The notes under the pieces are model-generated. The model made no database searches, had not been told where the DNA came from, and saw only the letters and a program-made list of their open reading frames with translations. A stretch of DNA of 64,000 nt, taken from NCBI RefSeq assembly GCF_000317475.1, contig NC_019729.1, forward strand, positions 2,370,501-2,434,500, written 5' to 3'. Position numbers and translations under genes: made by a program. The stretch comes from Oscillatoria nigro-viridis PCC 7112 (GTDB lineage: Bacteria > Cyanobacteriota > Cyanobacteriia > Cyanobacteriales > Microcoleaceae). Shown here piece by piece: positions 20,588-29,809 of this stretch (position 1 is the stretch's first letter; every line of letters starts with the position of its first letter).

Positions 20588-22453
20588 ATGCCAATGGCTC
20601 AAATCTTACTCCAGACCGTTTGGTTTATACCTTGCTATCCACTCATCGGCGGAGTTCTGTCGATGCTGTGGTTTCCGGCAGTTACCCGCCGCACGGGGCC
20701 AAGACCATCCGGTTACGTGAACGCTATATTAACCTTGTTCGCTTTCTTACACGGCGTCATAGCCCTGACAGCTATCTGGAACCAACCGGCACAGCACCAG
20801 TTAATTCCCTGGCTGAATGTAGCAGGTTTAGACTTAACCATTCCCGTAGAAATCTCTGCTGTCACCGTCGGCGCGACAGTTTTGGTTACCGGACTGAACT
20901 TGCTGGCGCAGATTTATGCTTTCGGTTACATGGAAATGGACTGGGGCTGGGCTCGGTTCTTTTCTCTGATGGGGCTGTTTGAAGCGGGGATGTGCGGCTT
21001 GGTACTGTGCAATTCCCTGTTCTTCAGCTACATGATTTTGGAAGTTCTGACTTTGGGTACTTACCTGCTAGTCGGGCTGTGGTTCAATCAGTCTTTGGTG
21101 GTGACAGGTGCCCGCGACGCTTTCTTAACGAAGCGGGTGGGTGATTTATTCCTGCTGATGGGAGTAGTCGCAATTCTGCCGCTGGCTGGAACTTGGAATT
21201 TTGACGAGTTGGCTGTTTGGGCCCAGACTGCAAAGCTTGACCCCACTGTAGCGACGCTGCTGACTTTAGCTTTGATTGCCGGCCCGATGGGTAAGTGCGC
21301 TCAGTTTCCCTTGCACCTGTGGCTGGATGAGGCGATGGAAGGCCCGCTGCCAGCGACGATTTTGCGGAACACCGTAGTTGTGGAAACTGGTGCTTGGATT
21401 TTGATTAAGTTGCAGCCGGTGATTGCTTTGTCGCCGATGGGGATGACGATAACTATTATTGTAGGTGCTGCGACGGCGGTTGGTGCTTCATTAATTGCGA
21501 TCGCCCAAATTGACATCAAGCGCACGCTTTCGTATATAGTCAGCGCTTACATGGGCTTAGTATTTATCGCCGTCGGCACCGGACAAGCCCAGACAGCCCT
21601 GACATTGATATTTGCCTACAGCTTGGCAATGGGTTTGCTGGTGATGAGCATCGGTTCGGTAGTTTGGAACAGCATCACTCAGGATGTCCGCTCTCTCGGC
21701 GGTTTGTGGGGAAAGCGGCCAATATCGGCAATAGCCTTTATTGTCGGTAGCGCTGGATTGGTTGGACTGCCGCCCTTCGGCTGCTTCTGGGCTTTAGAAG
21801 ACTTCACATCCGGGCTTTCGCAAACTCACCCTTTCTTGTTAGGAATAGTGCTGTTTGTAAACGGCGTCACTGCTTTTGGGTTGATGCGCGTCTTCGGTTT
21901 AGTTTTCGGCGGCAAACCAAAGCAAATGACTGAACGCGCGCCGGAAGTTCACTGGCCTTTTATCTTGCCGATGACTGTTTTAATGGGCTTTACTTTGCAC
22001 GTTCCGCACTTGCTGGCGGTGTGGCATTTATTGCCGGGGGCAAGTTTGAATTATACCGCAACTGGATTGCTCGTTTTGTCAACGGCGATCGGCATCGGTG
22101 CAGGAGCATTTGTTTACCTGAACGAGAAATGGGAAAAACCTGTGCGAATTGGTTCTCAAGCTTTGCAAGACTTTTTTGCCTACGACTTTTACACTGCCAA
22201 ACTTTACCGGGTGACAGTGATATTTGCAGTCGGTTTAGTTGCTCAAATCATCTCCTGGTTCGATCGCAATATAGTTGACGGATTCGCGAACTTAATCGGT
22301 TTTGTAACAGTTTTTGGTGGTCAAAGCCTCAAGTATAACGTTAACGGTCAAACTCAGTTTTATGCCCTAACAATTCTTTTCGGAGTTGCACTTTTGGGAC
22401 TGCTCATAAGCTGGCCGTTGCTAGTTCGCCTGTCGCTGATTGTGGGCGGGTAA
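20588..22453 (+). CDS. ndhF4: NDH-1 subunit 5 of the CO2-uptake type, NdhF4
   Basis: 621 aa, about 16 hydrophobic segments, a proton-pumping antiporter-like subunit of the thylakoid NDH-1 complex. It has the shortened N-terminus and RRTGPRPSGYVN typical of the NdhF3/F4 branch, and FPLHLWLDEAMEGPLPATI with IDIKRTLSYIVSAYMGL of the Mrp/NuoL fold. The companion CupB-type gene downstream makes this the constitutive NDH-1MS' variant (F4) rather than the inducible F3. MPMAQ (20588) or MAQ (20594) could be the true start; no Shine-Dalgarno decides. First gene of a same-strand cluster to 26902. Confidence 0.93.
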   Translation: MPMAQILLQTVWFIPCYPLIGGVLSMLWFPAVTRRTGPRPSGYVNAILTLFAFLHGVIALTAIWNQPAQHQLIPWLNVAGLDLTIPVEISAVTVGATVLVTGLNLLAQIYAFGYMEMDWGWARFFSLMGLFEAGMCGLVLCNSLFFSYMILEVLTLGTYLLVGLWFNQSLVVTGARDAFLTKRVGDLFLLMGVVAILPLAGTWNFDELAVWAQTAKLDPTVATLLTLALIAGPMGKCAQFPLHLWLDEAMEGPLPATILRNTVVVETGAWILIKLQPVIALSPMGMTITIIVGAATAVGASLIAIAQIDIKRTLSYIVSAYMGLVFIAVGTGQAQTALTLIFAYSLAMGLLVMSIGSVVWNSITQDVRSLGGLWGKRPISAIAFIVGSAGLVGLPPFGCFWALEDFTSGLSQTHPFLLGIVLFVNGVTAFGLMRVFGLVFGGKPKQMTERAPEVHWPFILPMTVLMGFTLHVPHLLAVWHLLPGASLNYTATGLLVLSTAIGIGAGAFVYLNEKWEKPVRIGSQALQDFFAYDFYTAKLYRVTVIFAVGLVAQIISWFDRNIVDGFANLIGFVTVFGGQSLKYNVNGQTQFYALTILFGVALLGLLISWPLLVRLSLIVGG

Positions 22454-22557
22454 AGAAATATAAGGTTGAAGATTTTAGGTGACCGTTTTAATCTAAAATC
22501 TTAAAAACCTGAAGTCTTGAACAAAGATTTCAAACGAGATGCAACAAGGCAACATCA

Positions 22558-23277
22558 ATGAACTCAAACCACAGACCATTCAATCTTTCCCGGCGCAATT
22601 CCCTCAAATTTGTCGCAGGAGCCATTGGTACAGGGATACTCGCGGCAGGAGCAGGCGCTGATTTGGCAGCACCCGAACCGGCAATTGCTCAAAATGACTT
22701 GACTCCCGATGCAGCTCTGAAACAGTTAATGGACGGGAACAAACGGTTTGTTGAGAGCAAACGCCAAAATCCCCACCAAGACTTTGGGCGCCTCACCGAA
22801 GTTGCCCAAACTCAAAAACCCTTTGCTGCTATTCTCGGCTGTGCAGATTCCCGCTTTCCTTCCGAGATTATCTTCGATCAAGGATTGGGAGATTTATTTG
22901 TCTGTCGGGTGGCCGGAAATGTTGTTACCTCAGAAGAAATGGGCAGCCTGGAATTTGGCACGCTGGTACTGGGAGCAAAAGTGCTTGTGGTAGTAGGGCA
23001 TGAAAGGTGCGGTGCGGTAGACGCAACAATCAAAGGAGCTCAAGTTCCCGGTCAAATTGGCAGTTTGATCGACGCCATTAAGCCGGCTGTAGAAAGCTCG
23101 AAAAACCAACCTGGCGATAGTCTAGAAAATGCCGTAAAAGCGAATGTTATGTTGCAAGCTAGCAGGCTGAAAGCCTCTCCAGTTATCTCTAAGTTAATTC
23201 AAGAGAATAAACTGAAAGTTGTTGGTGGATACTACGATTTAGACACGGGAACCGTCACTATTATTCCTGAGTCGTGA
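22558..23277 (+). CDS. ecaB: Tat-exported beta-carbonic anhydrase (EcaB-like)
   Basis: 239 aa. Catalyses CO2 + H2O <=> HCO3- + H+. A twin-arginine signal SRRNSLKF (residues 11-18) and hydrophobic stretch to about 44 (ending AIAQ) predict export to the thylakoid lumen or periplasm. Zinc ligands of the beta class are in place: Cys95 and Asp97 (GCADSRFP), His148 and Cys151 (VVGHERCGAVD). It lies between ndhF4 and ndhD4, 104 bases on each side. EcaB in Synechocystis is a thylakoid beta-type enzyme reported to act with the Cup proteins, so this position supports a direct role in the CO2-hydration module. Orthology to EcaB is my inference from Tat signal and context. Confidence 0.9.
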   Translation: MNSNHRPFNLSRRNSLKFVAGAIGTGILAAGAGADLAAPEPAIAQNDLTPDAALKQLMDGNKRFVESKRQNPHQDFGRLTEVAQTQKPFAAILGCADSRFPSEIIFDQGLGDLFVCRVAGNVVTSEEMGSLEFGTLVLGAKVLVVVGHERCGAVDATIKGAQVPGQIGSLIDAIKPAVESSKNQPGDSLENAVKANVMLQASRLKASPVISKLIQENKLKVVGGYYDLDTGTVTIIPES

Positions 23278-23381
23278 TGCAATTTGGGATTGATAATTTG
23301 GGAAAACTTAACATCTAAACTCTCAAATTATCGAAGACAAGAGACTGCAAAATTAATTGTTCACTATTCACTTCACACATT

Positions 23382-24896
23382 ATGCTTAGTGCCTTGCTCT
23401 GGTTGCCCGCGTTGGGCGCTGCGGTAGTCGGATTCCTGCCCGGAAATATCAATGGGATGCGTCTGCGTTCAATAGCCTCGGCTTTTGCTTCTGCTATTTT
23501 CCTGTTGAATATCTGGCTGCTGACTCAATTCGATACAGCCAATTCGGGACTGCAATTTCAAGAATATTTGCCTTGGATTCCACAATTAGGTTTGAGCTAC
23601 AATTTGGGCATAGACGGCTTGTCCTTGCCGCTGCTGGTTTTAAGTGCTTTGCTGACGCTATTAGTTATTTACGGCACTGGCGAAAAGATGGAGCGCCCCC
23701 AGCTTTACTACGCTTTGATTTTGCTAATCAATGCTGGTATTGCCGGAGCTTTGATGTCTCAAAATTTGCTGCTGTTTGTACTGTTTTACGAAGTAGAATT
23801 AATTCCTTTTTACCTGTTGATTGCGATTTGGGGCGGAAAGCAGCGGGAATACGCTGCCATGAAGTTTTTGATTTACACGGCAGTTTCGGGACTTTTAGTT
23901 TTAGCGGGATTTTTGGGTGTTGCTTGGCTGAGTGGGTCTTTAAATTTCGATTACACTGCGATTACCACTCAAGAATTGCCCTTGAACACGCAATTGATCC
24001 TGCTAACAATTGTACTAATTGGGTTGGGAATTAAAATTCCTTTAGTGCCGCTCCACACTTGGCTGCCGGATGCTTACGTCGAAGCTTCGCCAGCAACAGC
24101 AATTCTGCTGGGAGGGATTTTGGCGAAGTTGGGAACTTACGGTTTAGTGCGGTTCTGCTTGCAGTTGTTTCCCGAAACTTGGTCAATTGTAGCTCCGGGT
24201 TTGGCGATTATCGGGACTGTGAGCGTGATGTACGGTGCTTTGAGCGCGATCGCCCAAAAAGACATCAAGCGCATGGTAGCCTATAGTTCGATCGGGCATA
24301 TGGGCTACATCCTCGTTGCCTGCGCTGCGGGTACGAAGCTGGCATTAATCGGCGCTGTCGGGCAAATGGTAAGCCACGGCTTGATTTTAGCTTTGCTGTT
24401 TTATTTGGTAGGCATCATCGAAACCAAAGTTGGCACGCGGGATTTGGACGTACTCAACGGTTTGATGAACCCGATGCGGGGTTTACCCACTGCCAGTTCC
24501 CTGTTAGTTTTGGGCGGCATGGCAAGCGCCGGAATTCCCGGTTTGGTTGGTTTTATTGCCGAATTTTTAGTGTTTCAAGGCAGTTTTTCAATCTTTCCAA
24601 TTCCAACTTTAGTCTGCATTTTAGCTTCGGGTTTAACAGCAGTTTACTTTGTGATTCTGCTCAACCGCACCTGTTTTGGGAAGTTGGACAATGCCACGGC
24701 TTACTACCCTCCAGTTACCTTTGCTGAAAATATGCCGGCGCTGGTTTTGGCGGGCGTCATATTTGTGTTGGGAATTCAACCTGCTTGGCTGCTAAAATGG
24801 AGCGAATCTACTACAAATGCGATCGTTGCTACTCTGCCGGCTGACAGAAATACCCAAGTTGCTAAAATAGCTATACTTGGAAAACTCGGATCTTGA
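23382..24896 (+). CDS. ndhD4: NDH-1 subunit 4 of the CO2-uptake type, NdhD4
   Basis: 504 aa, about 14 hydrophobic segments, NuoM-like proton-translocating subunit. Motifs are LVPLHTWLPDAYVEASPATAI (loop before TM7; key part HTWLPDAYVEASPA), KDIKRMVAYSSIGHMGYILV (about residue 300) and the conserved Glu in FYEVELIPFYLL. Together with NdhF4 and CupB it forms the distal membrane arm of the constitutive NDH-1MS' complex for CO2 uptake. D4 rather than D3 rests on the cupB neighbour. Intact. Confidence 0.93.
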   Translation: MLSALLWLPALGAAVVGFLPGNINGMRLRSIASAFASAIFLLNIWLLTQFDTANSGLQFQEYLPWIPQLGLSYNLGIDGLSLPLLVLSALLTLLVIYGTGEKMERPQLYYALILLINAGIAGALMSQNLLLFVLFYEVELIPFYLLIAIWGGKQREYAAMKFLIYTAVSGLLVLAGFLGVAWLSGSLNFDYTAITTQELPLNTQLILLTIVLIGLGIKIPLVPLHTWLPDAYVEASPATAILLGGILAKLGTYGLVRFCLQLFPETWSIVAPGLAIIGTVSVMYGALSAIAQKDIKRMVAYSSIGHMGYILVACAAGTKLALIGAVGQMVSHGLILALLFYLVGIIETKVGTRDLDVLNGLMNPMRGLPTASSLLVLGGMASAGIPGLVGFIAEFLVFQGSFSIFPIPTLVCILASGLTAVYFVILLNRTCFGKLDNATAYYPPVTFAENMPALVLAGVIFVLGIQPAWLLKWSESTTNAIVATLPADRNTQVAKIAILGKLGS

Positions 24897-25090
24897 AATC
24901 GCGTCTACACAAACTTTCTTCCGCGCAACGCGAGACTAAGATAGCTCAGCGATTAAAATAGGTTCTGCACTTCCCTTGCTTCCGCCTGTGCGGACTCACA
25001 AATATCTACTCGTTACTAGGCTCTGTATCCAATTTTCATGAAATATTTTGGACGCAGAGCCTCCAGATAAATACCAGGAGATGAGCGCTC

Positions 25091-25477
25091 ATGAAACCGA
25101 AAAAACTTTTCAGTGTATCCGCAGTTACAACCCTTCTTTTAGTAGTGGCAACTTCTGCTTTTGCACAAGCTATAACTCGAATTCGTGATTTGCCAGCGTT
25201 GAAAACAGGAATTACTATCTCTGGCCGAGTAGTCGGTTTTGGAGAATCTGATGAAAATGAGTGGATTTTAAATGATGGCAGCGGTCAAGTTAGAGTCGAT
25301 GCCGGCCCGCGCAGGTGGCGCAATATTAATCTATCAGAAGGGGAAACAATTACCGTTGTTGGCGAGATGGATGACGGCGAATTTGATGCTTTTTCGATTA
25401 CTCTGTCGAACGGCTCAATTATCAACATCCGATCTCCACAAGGCCCGCCGCCTTGGGCTGGAAAAGAGGGAAAATAA
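25091..25477 (+). CDS. small exported OB-fold-like protein, function unknown
   Basis: 128 aa. N-terminal signal peptide (LFSVSAVTTLLLVVATSAFA, cleavage near residue 26). The mature part is a short beta-rich domain: ITRIRDLPAL, TISGRVVGFGESDENEWILN, DGSGQVRVDAG and ETITVVGEMDDGEF, a pattern typical of OB folds (as in bacterial OB-fold/BOF proteins). A Shine-Dalgarno-like AGGAGA precedes the ATG. It sits between ndhD4 and cupB on the same strand, so an extracytoplasmic role tied to the CO2-uptake complex or the carbonic anhydrase is possible but not shown. I do not recognise a named family. Confidence 0.8.
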   Translation: MKPKKLFSVSAVTTLLLVVATSAFAQAITRIRDLPALKTGITISGRVVGFGESDENEWILNDGSGQVRVDAGPRRWRNINLSEGETITVVGEMDDGEFDAFSITLSNGSIINIRSPQGPPPWAGKEGK

Positions 25478-25579
25478 CTGTAAAAAGCAGCGCTATCTTT
25501 CCGAAAAGCCTGAGATTTGGGAAAAGCTTATTCGGGAATTGATAAATAGGCAAATTAATTCAAAAAAAAAGAACAAACA

Positions 25580-26902
25580 ATGGTACAAACTCCTACGAGA
25601 TCGGCAACTAAACTACCTCCTTCCAAACACGAATTTGCCGAAGTAATTCACAGGCTAGAAGCTGGCGGTGCGATGATTCCAGATACGCCGGAAAATCTGA
25701 TGCAAATCATAGCTATCTGGAAAGCTTACGCGGTGCCGATGGATTTCTACTGGCGGGATTTGCTTTACATCGCCGAACGGGTATTTTTACACCCGCTTCC
25801 CTTCTTTAAATACTTTTTGCCCCAGGAGTATTTAGACTTGCAAAATCACTATGCAGGCGACGGTGCAGATTTGCGGATCTGGCGCGGGACGGGAAGTGTT
25901 CACCCGGAACTTTTGGAGTTCATGGAAAAGGGAGAAACTGGTAAACTCCCTCGATTTCTGCACCATTTGTGGCACGATCGCATTAACATGGAATTTGCCG
26001 AAGAGTGCATGAGGTCAATGCTTTGGCACCGGGGCTTGTACGTGCCGACCAATCAATTCGATCCTTATTTGGACAGTGACGAATATAAGGCTAATGCCGA
26101 TCGGGCAATTAAAGCTTACTTCAAAAAAGACCCGTTCATGCTGGCACTGCACAAAGCATTTCCAGAAATGTTTTTAGAACAGTGCCGCCAAATGTCTTAT
26201 TACAGCAATCTCGGTTTATTCTGGGAAGTCATGGCGCCGGTGTTTTTTGAGGTTTCCGACTTGTACGACGAAGGGAAAGTTACCACAGTCCCGCAGGCGA
26301 TGGATTTCATAGTAAATGGCATATTTGCGATCGCCGGTCGTCCGATTTACCACCACGTTTACATCGACGGCGAGAAGTACGAAATCATCCCCAAATCTAA
26401 GGGTTTTACTTGGCTTTACGAAGCAGCGTTACCTTACGTGGAAGCTGTATTTTACCGCACTTCACCTTTCCGAGGCACCAAATCTTACAACGCTCAAGCT
26501 AAGGAAGTTCCTGAGGATCAAAAAGACTTCCACTACGGAGTGCTTTATGCAGACAAATTCCCTGTAGGTACGGCGGGGATTCCGCCGACTTTGCTAGCAC
26601 AAGATATGCTGCATTTCCTGCCACCTTATTTGATGGATTTCTACAAACAGCGCTGTCGGGGCGAAGATGATATCCTCAATCAAATTGGCGTGACATTTCA
26701 GCGATCGATGTACTGCGTAACTTCGGCGGTAATTCAAGCTTTGCGGACTGCTCTTTTGTATCCTTTAGACGACCCGAATCCGAAGCATTTGAAGGCAAAT
26801 CGGGCTTTCTTTGAGGCTCAGCTCGATCGCTTCTGTCGCCCGGAATACGGCATGAAATATGCGGCGAAGCTCAAGAATATTCAGACTTCGGATTACAGGT
26901 AA
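25580..26902 (+). CDS. cupB: CO2 hydration protein CupB (ChpX)
   Basis: 440 aa soluble subunit that gives NDH-1 its CO2-to-bicarbonate activity at the thylakoid. The N-terminus with KLPPSKHEFAEVIHRLEAGG, DFYWRDLLYIAERVFL and FKYFLPQEYLDLQNHYAGD is of the CupB/ChpX type rather than CupA/ChpY, which lacks the long HYAGDGADLRIWRG segment. The conserved GTKSYNAQAKEVP and TAGIPPTLLAQDMLHFLP are present. CupB goes with NdhF4/NdhD4 in the constitutive, lower-affinity system. Last clear gene of the cluster. Intact. Confidence 0.95.
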   Translation: MVQTPTRSATKLPPSKHEFAEVIHRLEAGGAMIPDTPENLMQIIAIWKAYAVPMDFYWRDLLYIAERVFLHPLPFFKYFLPQEYLDLQNHYAGDGADLRIWRGTGSVHPELLEFMEKGETGKLPRFLHHLWHDRINMEFAEECMRSMLWHRGLYVPTNQFDPYLDSDEYKANADRAIKAYFKKDPFMLALHKAFPEMFLEQCRQMSYYSNLGLFWEVMAPVFFEVSDLYDEGKVTTVPQAMDFIVNGIFAIAGRPIYHHVYIDGEKYEIIPKSKGFTWLYEAALPYVEAVFYRTSPFRGTKSYNAQAKEVPEDQKDFHYGVLYADKFPVGTAGIPPTLLAQDMLHFLPPYLMDFYKQRCRGEDDILNQIGVTFQRSMYCVTSAVIQALRTALLYPLDDPNPKHLKANRAFFEAQLDRFCRPEYGMKYAAKLKNIQTSDYR

Positions 26903-28392: not shown

Positions 28393-29809
28393 AAATAATA
28401 CCCTGAAAACCCCGCGACTTTAGTCCGGTGATGAAAGGGACAAGGAGGCTTTAGCCTCCCAGTCTATTTTCTGAGCTCTCAGGATGGCGCTGTCAAGTAA
28501 AACCATGTAAATCTTTGTGAACAACTAGAGGAATATTAAGCCGACTCTGGTAGCATAAGACTATCGTGATGAGGTCGAAGTCATGTTAGTTTTTGAGTTG
28601 AAAGCATCGGGTAAAAAGCAGCAATTTGACGCTGTAGACGAAGCAATTAGAACGGTGCAGTTCATCCGAAACAAAGCACTGCGGTTTTGGATGGAAAACG
28701 AAAAAGTTGATAAATACGCATTGAACAAGTATAGCGCTGTTTTAGCTAAGGAATTTCCGTTTTGCGACGAATTGAACAGCATGGCTCGACAATCTAGCTC
28801 AGAAAGAGCGTGGTCGGCGATTTCACGATTTTACGACAACTGTAAAAAGAAAGTCCCAGGAAAAAAAGGATTCCCGCAATTCCAGAAACACAACCGCTCC
28901 GTCGAGTACAAGACTACGGGCTGGCGTCTGGCAGACGACAGAAAATCCATTACTTTTACCGACAAGCAAGGAATCGGAAAGCTCAAGTTAAAAGGAACGC
29001 GCGACTTACATTTCTCTCAGCGCAGTCAAATCAAACGAGTACGTTTGGTGAGACGGGCAGACGGATATTATGTCCAGTTTTGCATTCAAGTTGACCGTTC
29101 TGAAAAGATTGAAATCACGGGTAACACCATCGGGTTAGATGTAGGACTTAAAGAGTTTTACACTGACTCAAATGGCGTTGCAGTTGATAACCCGCGTTTC
29201 CTCCGCAAGGGAGAACGCAGGTTGAAGAAATCCCAAAAACGAGTTTCAAAACGAGTCAAGGGTTCACAAAACAGAAAAAAAGCTAGAGCGATTCTAGGGA
29301 AGCGCCACCTCAAAATAAGCAGACAGCGTAAAGATTTTGCCGTGAAGTTGGCAAGATGCGTCATCCAGTCTAACGACTGCGTAGTCTACGAAGACTTGAG
29401 GATCAAAAATATGGTGAAGAATCACTGTCTGGCAAAATCGATTAACGACGCTTCTTGGTATATGTTCCGAATTTGGCTGGAATATTTTGGCAAAGTATTC
29501 GGAAGAATTACGATTGCCGTACCAGCTAACGGAACAAGTCAAGAATGCTCTAGTTGCGGAACAATTGTTAAGAAAAGTCTCTCAACGCGAACCCACGCTT
29601 GTCGGTGTGGATGCGTATTAGATCGTGACTGGAACGCAGCTAAAAATATCCTGAGTCGGGGATTGAGTACGGCGGGGCACGTCGGAACTTGGATCTTAGA
29701 TCCGAACGCTTGTGGAGAATTGACCGCTACCGATGTTGAAGTAATTCTGCACCGGCAAGTTGATTCTGCGAATCAAGAATCTCCTCGGCTTTAGCCAGGA
29801 GAGTGTCAA
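28393..29809 (+). mobile_element. solo tnpB element of the IS200/IS605 group, 1417 bp
   Basis: Boundaries follow from rejoining the split XRE frame. The left flank ends TTTAT (28388-28392), a plausible target pentanucleotide / target-adjacent motif. There is no target duplication, as expected for this group. The right end is a hairpin CTCCTCGGC-TTTA-GCCAGGAG followed by AGTGTCAA ending at 29809. No tnpA. The left end starts AAATAATACCCTG and contains the CCCGCG...CCGG and GGAGGCTTTAGCCTCC palindromes. Confidence 0.88.
28583..29794 (+). CDS. tnpB: RNA-guided endonuclease TnpB (IS200/IS605 accessory protein)
   Basis: 403 aa. MLVFELKASGKKQQFDAVDE at the N-terminus, RuvC-like catalytic residues in TIGLDVGLKEFY (Asp), CVVYEDLRIKNM (Glu) and LDRDWNAAKN (Asp). 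Zinc finger CSSCG...CRCGC. All are intact, so it may be active. Its 3' coding end overlaps the right-end hairpin that should form the guide RNA scaffold. The tail after the RuvC site (LSRGLSTAGHVGTWI...) is typical of cyanobacterial copies. Quite different in sequence from the tnpB at 11.7-12.9 kb. Confidence 0.94.
   Translation: MLVFELKASGKKQQFDAVDEAIRTVQFIRNKALRFWMENEKVDKYALNKYSAVLAKEFPFCDELNSMARQSSSERAWSAISRFYDNCKKKVPGKKGFPQFQKHNRSVEYKTTGWRLADDRKSITFTDKQGIGKLKLKGTRDLHFSQRSQIKRVRLVRRADGYYVQFCIQVDRSEKIEITGNTIGLDVGLKEFYTDSNGVAVDNPRFLRKGERRLKKSQKRVSKRVKGSQNRKKARAILGKRHLKISRQRKDFAVKLARCVIQSNDCVVYEDLRIKNMVKNHCLAKSINDASWYMFRIWLEYFGKVFGRITIAVPANGTSQECSSCGTIVKKSLSTRTHACRCGCVLDRDWNAAKNILSRGLSTAGHVGTWILDPNACGELTATDVEVILHRQVDSANQESPRL

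Follow-up and report, generated by a model that had tools for sequence, protein, structure and literature searches.

The window analysed here, a stretch of 64,000 nucleotides from Oscillatoria nigro-viridis PCC 7112 (NC_019729.1, positions 2,370,501 to 2,434,500), carries five genes arranged head-to-tail on its forward strand, which code for NdhF, a beta-carbonic anhydrase (CA), NdhD, an OB-fold protein and a ChpXY/Cup protein (Table 1). The CA gene lies on the same strand as its neighbours in the gap between ndhF3 and ndhD3, a place referred to as the slot in the following. An exported enzyme of the twin-arginine translocation (Tat) type, with all zinc ligands and placed between ndhF and ndhD, had been described in an earlier note on this DNA, and its position, domain and ligands have all been seen in the present analysis.

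Table 1. Coordinates of the features of the ndhF3-CA-ndhD3-cupA cluster in the window and the evidence for each
Feature	Position in window	Strand	Evidence
ndhF3 (NdhF of NDH-1MS)	20588..22453	+	TIGR01960 above cut-off; 6tjv_F, 758 bits
Two predicted hairpins, ndhF3-CA gap	22463..22531	+	Fold z; conservation in relatives
EcaB-type beta-carbonic anhydrase, predicted to be exported	22558..23277	+	PF00484; zinc ligands; RR pair; fold; tree
ndhD3 (NdhD of NDH-1MS)	23382..24896	+	6tjv_D, 651 bits (539 for paralogue)
Exported OB-fold protein (BOF/YgiW-type), optional part	25091..25477	+	PF04076, E 5.8e-06; NF033674, E 1.2e-08
cupA (CO2 hydration protein of NDH-1MS)	25580..26902	+	PF10216, E 1.9e-161; 6tjv_P (Tlr0906), 726 bits

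The window CA is a protein of 239 amino acids, which matches the Pfam domain Pro_CA (PF00484) with an E value of 7e-40. Its predicted fold (mean pLDDT 82.5) is nearest to that of Rv3588c of Mycobacterium tuberculosis (2a5v; Foldseek E 1.6e-21, TMq 0.76), and the Foldseek matches also include CcaA (5swc). The residues C95, D97, R99, H148 and C151, which make up the Cys-His-Cys zinc ligands and the Asp-Arg dyad, are invariant in 20/20 and 26/26 rows of two alignments, and so is the twin-arginine pair R12-R13. Domain, fold and ligands confirm the protein as a beta-carbonic anhydrase, for which catalysis is predicted. The first 44 residues, inspected by eye, display the RR pair followed by a hydrophobic run and an A-x-A motif at positions 42-44; this N-terminus looks like a Tat signal, and export of the enzyme is predicted.

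The type of the cluster is evident from comparison with the NDH-1MS complex of Thermosynechococcus elongatus (6tjv). The NdhF, NdhD and Cup proteins of the window match its chains F, D and P with the bit scores given in Table 1, whereas the corresponding proteins of the other cluster of the same genome (L272) reach 577, 539 and 331 bits; the two Cup proteins share 43% identity. As the window proteins are better matches than their paralogues, the window cluster is, judged by these scores, ndhF3-CA-ndhD3-cupA of the high-affinity NDH-1MS system, and the label ndhF4-ndhD4-cupB, which it had carried in the earlier note, is wrong. A CupB-type assignment of the window Cup protein was rejected, as it matches Tlr0906 (CupA) better than the Cup protein of L272 does. 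In one surveyed genome (L092), the Cup protein of the window type is identical to Tlr0906 across 393 residues. The L272 cluster, which diverges from genes read by eye as ccmK, ccmL and ccmM, is of the ndhF4-ndhD4-cupB type (NDH-1MS'). Low CO2 has been reported to induce the ndhF3-ndhD3-cupA operon both in Synechocystis and in Synechococcus PCC 7002 (PMC5853218, PMC11456788). A Synechocystis strain deprived of ndhF4, bicA, cmpB and sbtA, in which only the CupA-dependent system is active in Ci uptake, has also been described (PMC11456788).

The residues R39, Y43 and E116 of the putative CO2 channel are present in the window NdhF, and H129 and R134 of the zinc site in the window Cup protein, each of them being kept in at least 59 of 61 sequences. 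Alignment of the CupB-type protein (L272:5563-6789) places Tyr at the position of the CupA zinc ligand His130, with His133 and Arg135 retained, and zinc binding by CupB may therefore differ from that by CupA. CupS was considered as an extra member of the cluster and dropped; the genome in which CupA is identical to Tlr0906 has, by eye, no CupS-like gene just downstream. Fasciclin-type genes are not found at this cluster and are located elsewhere in the genome.

The distribution of the arrangement was followed in two sets of genomes. An even draw across the phylum comprised 146 genomes, 63 of them with a ChpXY gene; from genomes other than that of the window, 60 loci of the lower-scoring ChpXY type were taken, of which 59 are CupA-type (at least 69% identity to the window) and one (L094, Cup 34% identity to the window) is not, yet is counted among the 60. 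A slot CA on the same strand is present at 13 of the 60 loci and, with the addition of L257, in which cupA lies elsewhere, in 14 of the 60 genomes, besides the window itself. Fragments of a CA are found in the slot of three further sampled loci (L070, with 72 and 22 residues; L080, with 23; L088, with 27). Named genomes were scanned with an alignment of the clade, and among the best 80 of 577 relatives the full order ndhF3-CA-ndhD3-cupA is seen in 67 and a partial order in 3 (L169, L202 and L237), the CA being elsewhere in 10. The survey of gene order that the earlier note had proposed thus finds the slot CA conserved. As these 80 are near relatives by construction, 67/80 is no frequency and 14/60 is the fairer figure; the two sets also overlap (for example L053/L175 and L145/L237), and the counts are not additive. 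L237 is also the named twin of L257.

Slot carriers among the same best 80 of 577 relatives belong to Microcoleus, Tychonema, Nostoc, Calothrix, Fischerella, Microcystis, Planktothrix and Chroococcus, and all five Microcystis loci have a slot CA. Two Planktothrix loci (L222:5426-6983 and L224:6971-8519) bear two CAs in tandem between ndhF3 and ndhD3.

The specificity of the linkage is evident from the neighbours of the two types of Cup gene. Exported beta-CAs within 10 kb of a CupA-type gene number 15 of 49 (14 in the slot, one upstream on the opposite strand), as compared to a chance expectation of about 0.19 with an assumed genome size of 5.2 Mb, while the CupB-type genes of the surveyed genomes have none of the 49 within 10 kb. 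In the CA tree, the slot-enzyme group (support 55/80) comprises 20 rows, 15 in the slot and five others. The 27 rows of a second exported clade (99/88) all lie outside the slot; among them is L163 (G000:C1:4611941-4612375), the second exported beta-CA of this genome, which the earlier note had missed. Neither a third Pro_CA match nor an alpha-CA (EcaA) match was found in this genome, in which gamma-type CAs were not searched for.

The first tree excluded matches with E above 1e-7 or fewer than 150 aligned residues, together with the duplicate loci L041 and L125; the second left out 31 of 35 CcaA-labelled rows, including the long-branched L161, this label denoting less than 36% identity to the window CA and nothing further. 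The carboxysomal CcaA shares the beta-CA fold with the slot CA, but stands on a separate branch in both trees, and the slot CA, unlike CcaA, carries an export signal; identification of the slot CA as CcaA was rejected by its position in both trees. At one locus, L096 (G099:C19:10053-11884), a CcaA-like CA adjoins a CupB-type gene, the domain matches being 306 bases apart.

Co-inheritance has been elucidated from pairwise distances over 78 loci, which correlate between CA and NdhF3 with r 0.80 and between CA and CupA with r 0.67, none of 999 permutations being as high in either case. The spacing and distance figures pool named and unnamed loci, and identical CA ends were removed for the distances only. 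A tree built for 61 genomes from their joined NdhF, NdhD and Cup proteins has the slot carriers spread over families f1, f5, f6 and f16, and the slot CA fragments fall in families f6 and f11. This scatter, together with the fragments, tends to favour a single old insertion with many losses rather than repeated insertion. The arrangement occurs widely; it is specific for a single group of exported CAs and for clusters of the CupA type, has been inherited together with the cluster, and has in some cases decayed within the slot. With this specificity and co-inheritance, a functional linkage of the exported CA to the CO2-uptake NDH complex is well supported. Of the earlier proposal that the enzyme is coupled to the uptake complex, the coupling itself is borne out by gene order and co-inheritance; the complex concerned, however, is NDH-1MS (CupA) and not the constitutive NDH-1MS' (CupB).

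The gaps on both sides of the CA gene are short, with medians of 81 bp before it (82 loci) and 117 bp after it (83 loci). The ndhF3-CA gap of the window (fold z -4.57) contains two stable predicted hairpins, which are kept in 9 close relatives as well as in the window, and whose exact pattern is matched once in the genome. They were rejected as a proven RNA element, as no pair changes on both sides. Neither gap flanking the CA gene gave a promoter- or terminator-like match on the + strand, in a scan that was no better than on shuffled sequence.

The slot CA resembles EcaB (Slr0051) of Synechocystis sp. PCC 6803, an exported beta-CA with a twin-arginine signal, but EcaB is encoded at another locus in Synechocystis, while the slot CA lies inside ndhF3-ndhD3-cupA. 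In one genus represented by five genomes, L255 and L256 carry the CA in another neighbourhood, read by eye as rnz, purU, ilvN, GST and trpG. This neighbourhood looks like the slr0051 region, and the genus is therefore taken to be Synechocystis. L257 of the same presumed genus keeps ndhF3-CA-ndhD3, L254 (7172-9740) has an ecaB-type gene beside genes read by eye as sbtA-sbtB, and the fifth genome has no slot-type enzyme, only a CcaA-like match. These findings are in line with the earlier remark that the EcaB gene of Synechocystis lies elsewhere, two of the five presumed genomes having it at one other locus and one beside the sbtA-like genes.

In the tree, rows presumed from their gene neighbours to be Synechocystis EcaB stand in for the PCC 6803 enzyme. 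These rows group with the slot enzymes of f5 (99/94) and fall outside the second exported clade (99/88), inside the whole group of 55/80. The best reading of these observations is that the ancestral place of EcaB is the ndhF3-ecaB-ndhD3-cupA cluster, from which it has moved away in Synechocystis. The signal of the PCC 6803 EcaB is reported to bear a twin-arginine motif (PMC11360081), and the protein to occur mostly in thylakoids, to be raised at low CO2 and to interact with CupA/B (PMC10096703). Its putative lipid attachment site is described as hypothetical in reviews (PMC10096703, PMC11360081); the window CA has no Cys upstream of C95, and the lipid anchor proposed for EcaB is therefore not present in it. 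The row L159, taken as Synechocystis EcaB, likewise has no Cys ahead of the residue matching C95.

The best explanation of the arrangement as a whole, to which we give an even chance, is that an EcaB-type enzyme, ancestral in the ndhF3 cluster, is a lumenal supplier of CO2 to NDH-1MS. The Tat pathway would export the CA to the thylakoid lumen, where, at acid pH, it would turn leaked or carried-in bicarbonate into CO2 near NDH-1MS. The hydrophobic NdhF3 channel would conduct this CO2 to the cytoplasmic side, where it would reach the CupA zinc site and be trapped as bicarbonate, and protons would leave through NdhD3. The CA and CupA would then form a vectorial CO2 pump of two enzymes, with the CA as its lumenal half. 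A tunnel running from the lumenal side to CupA has been described in the solved complex (PMC6981117), and such a lumenal CO2 route would be fed by the CA, whose gene stands between those for the channel subunit and the next subunit of the pump. We infer a lumenal rather than a periplasmic location for the enzyme, and a reaction in the direction from HCO3- to CO2. A farther-reaching proposal assigns EcaB, across a broad set of beta-cyanobacteria, to NDH-1MS as its dedicated lumenal subunit or partner. The complex would then be a machine of two enzymes, with dehydration of bicarbonate at the lumenal face and rehydration of the CO2 at the cytoplasmic face, and uptake would draw on enzyme-made lumenal CO2 and not on cytoplasmic CO2. 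This proposal is put forward tentatively and is more doubtful.

Several observations weigh against lumenal supply of CO2 to NDH-1MS by a clustered EcaB. The support of 55/80 for the slot CAs as one clade is not firm, and early studies assigned EcaA/B no role in the carbon-concentrating mechanism (PMC10096703, PMC11360081). The best promoter-like match, from the scan that was no better than shuffles, lies at 24841-24868, at the end of ndhD3, from where transcription of just the OB-fold gene and cupA could start. In Microcystis PCC 7806 at high CO2, ecaB is reported to be constant and ndhF3 slightly down, which is not as a simple operon predicts. Tat export fits the lumen and the periplasm alike, and proteomics placed EcaB also in the periplasm (PMC10096703); both facts suit a periplasmic enzyme, which would act at the cell surface and form CO2 from external bicarbonate; this CO2 would diffuse in and be trapped by NDH-1MS, and the gene order would then reflect one pathway and not one complex. 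The position of ecaB in L254, adjoining the sbtA-sbtB genes read by eye, which represent a plasma-membrane bicarbonate uptake system, points the same way. On the other hand, the bulk of Synechocystis EcaB is reported in thylakoid membranes (PMC10096703), and external CA activity has been called negligible in Microcystis (PMC4419860), whose loci bear the slot enzyme. On balance, a periplasmic site of action appears unlikely, though it is a serious contender.

The direction of the reaction has also been seen differently. Instead of supplying lumenal CO2, the CA might sit on the complex to assist CO2 hydration or to regulate CupA, a view reportedly due to Sun et al. 2019, or it might consume protons as a safety valve when light is high. 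One review has EcaB converting CO2 to bicarbonate, the opposite of the direction preferred here (PMC9283085); such accounts place this conversion in conditions where pH or light is high or CO2 is low, and have EcaB interacting with CupA/B (PMC10096703, PMC9283085). A Tat-exported enzyme and CupA, which is on the cytoplasmic side, would however stand on opposite faces of the membrane, and the acid lumen favours CO2 over bicarbonate (PMC10096703); a helper, regulatory or safety-valve role seems improbable.

Finally, an intact slot CA is missing in 46 of the 60 sampled genomes, and the slot enzyme is therefore dispensable. Its absence from most sampled genomes, and the coming and going of the unrelated OB-fold gene in the same cluster, would be expected if the CA were a passenger, that is, if an old accidental gene order had been kept by operon inertia and the enzyme acted elsewhere. 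That retention across f1, f5, f6 and f16 is specific for a single CA group and a single type of cluster argues against this, as does the interaction with CupA/B reported in a species with ecaB elsewhere (PMC10096703); of the alternatives considered, the passenger is the least credible and very improbable.

As compared to known systems, the window cluster shares orthologous NdhF3, NdhD3 and CupA, with their channel and zinc-site residues, with the NDH-1MS of T. elongatus (6tjv), but L092, the genome with a CupA identical to Tlr0906, has no CA in the slot, unlike the window. The accessible description of the solved T. elongatus complex names no beta-CA among its parts. The paralogous ndhF4-ndhD4-cupB cluster of NDH-1MS', located in this genome at L272, is of another type than the window genes, and none of the exported CAs of the surveyed genomes (0/49) has a CupB-type gene within 10 kb. 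A further comparison is offered by the DAB pumps (DabA/DabB), in which a membrane subunit of the NuoL/NdhF family and a beta-CA-like enzyme perform vectorial CO2 hydration; the DabA protein is large and faces the cytoplasm. The window NdhF is matched by DabB2 (9rd0_B) with an E value of 1.6e-16, whereas the enzyme of the window is a small exported Pro_CA protein, present besides the separate cytoplasmic hydratase CupA.

The EcaB family, the NDH-1MS complex and their reported association are already known. A published statement placing a CA inside the cluster was not found in searches which never paired ecaB with ndhF3 and whose scope did not extend to subscription journals. Two genome surveys listing both gene sets make no mention, in their accessible portions, of a CA within the cluster (PMC5472144, PMC9120777); the former reports EcaB as absent from all 12 strains surveyed, and the latter calls the distribution of ecaB in thermophiles scattered.

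The OB-fold gene between ndhD3 and cupA was not mentioned in the earlier note. It occupies this place in 4 of the 80 named loci (Tychonema, Chroococcus sp. FPU101 and two Microcystis, among the best 80 of 577 relatives) and in none of the 60 sampled loci, while a homologue anywhere in the genome is present in 18 of 63 genomes, this one included. The linked copies are ungrouped on the tree of the gene (4 changes against a shuffled mean of 4.3), and it was rejected as a conserved cluster partner; in view of this and its rare occurrence, it is not counted as a conserved part. Farther along the window, an open reading frame at 28583-29794 resembles, judged by eye and with no search run, a transposon protein of the IS605-type TnpB/OrfB kind.

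The gene order bears on the question of which compartment, the cytoplasm or the thylakoid lumen, provides the CO2 taken up by NDH-1MS. A 2026 review sees only structural data behind the lumenal CO2 route and calls for biochemical evidence (PMC13249358); no mention of EcaB was counted in its accessible text. The conserved gene order is independent evidence for a non-cytoplasmic CA linked to NDH-1MS in particular. It also assigns EcaB, so far puzzling, to a pathway, and points to groups of organisms that would allow the question of the CO2 source to be tested on a single gene cluster. The presence of a CA in the CO2-uptake cluster of many cyanobacteria suggests that the enzyme feeds CO2 to the pump from the far side of the membrane, a supply that has so far been argued from structure alone.

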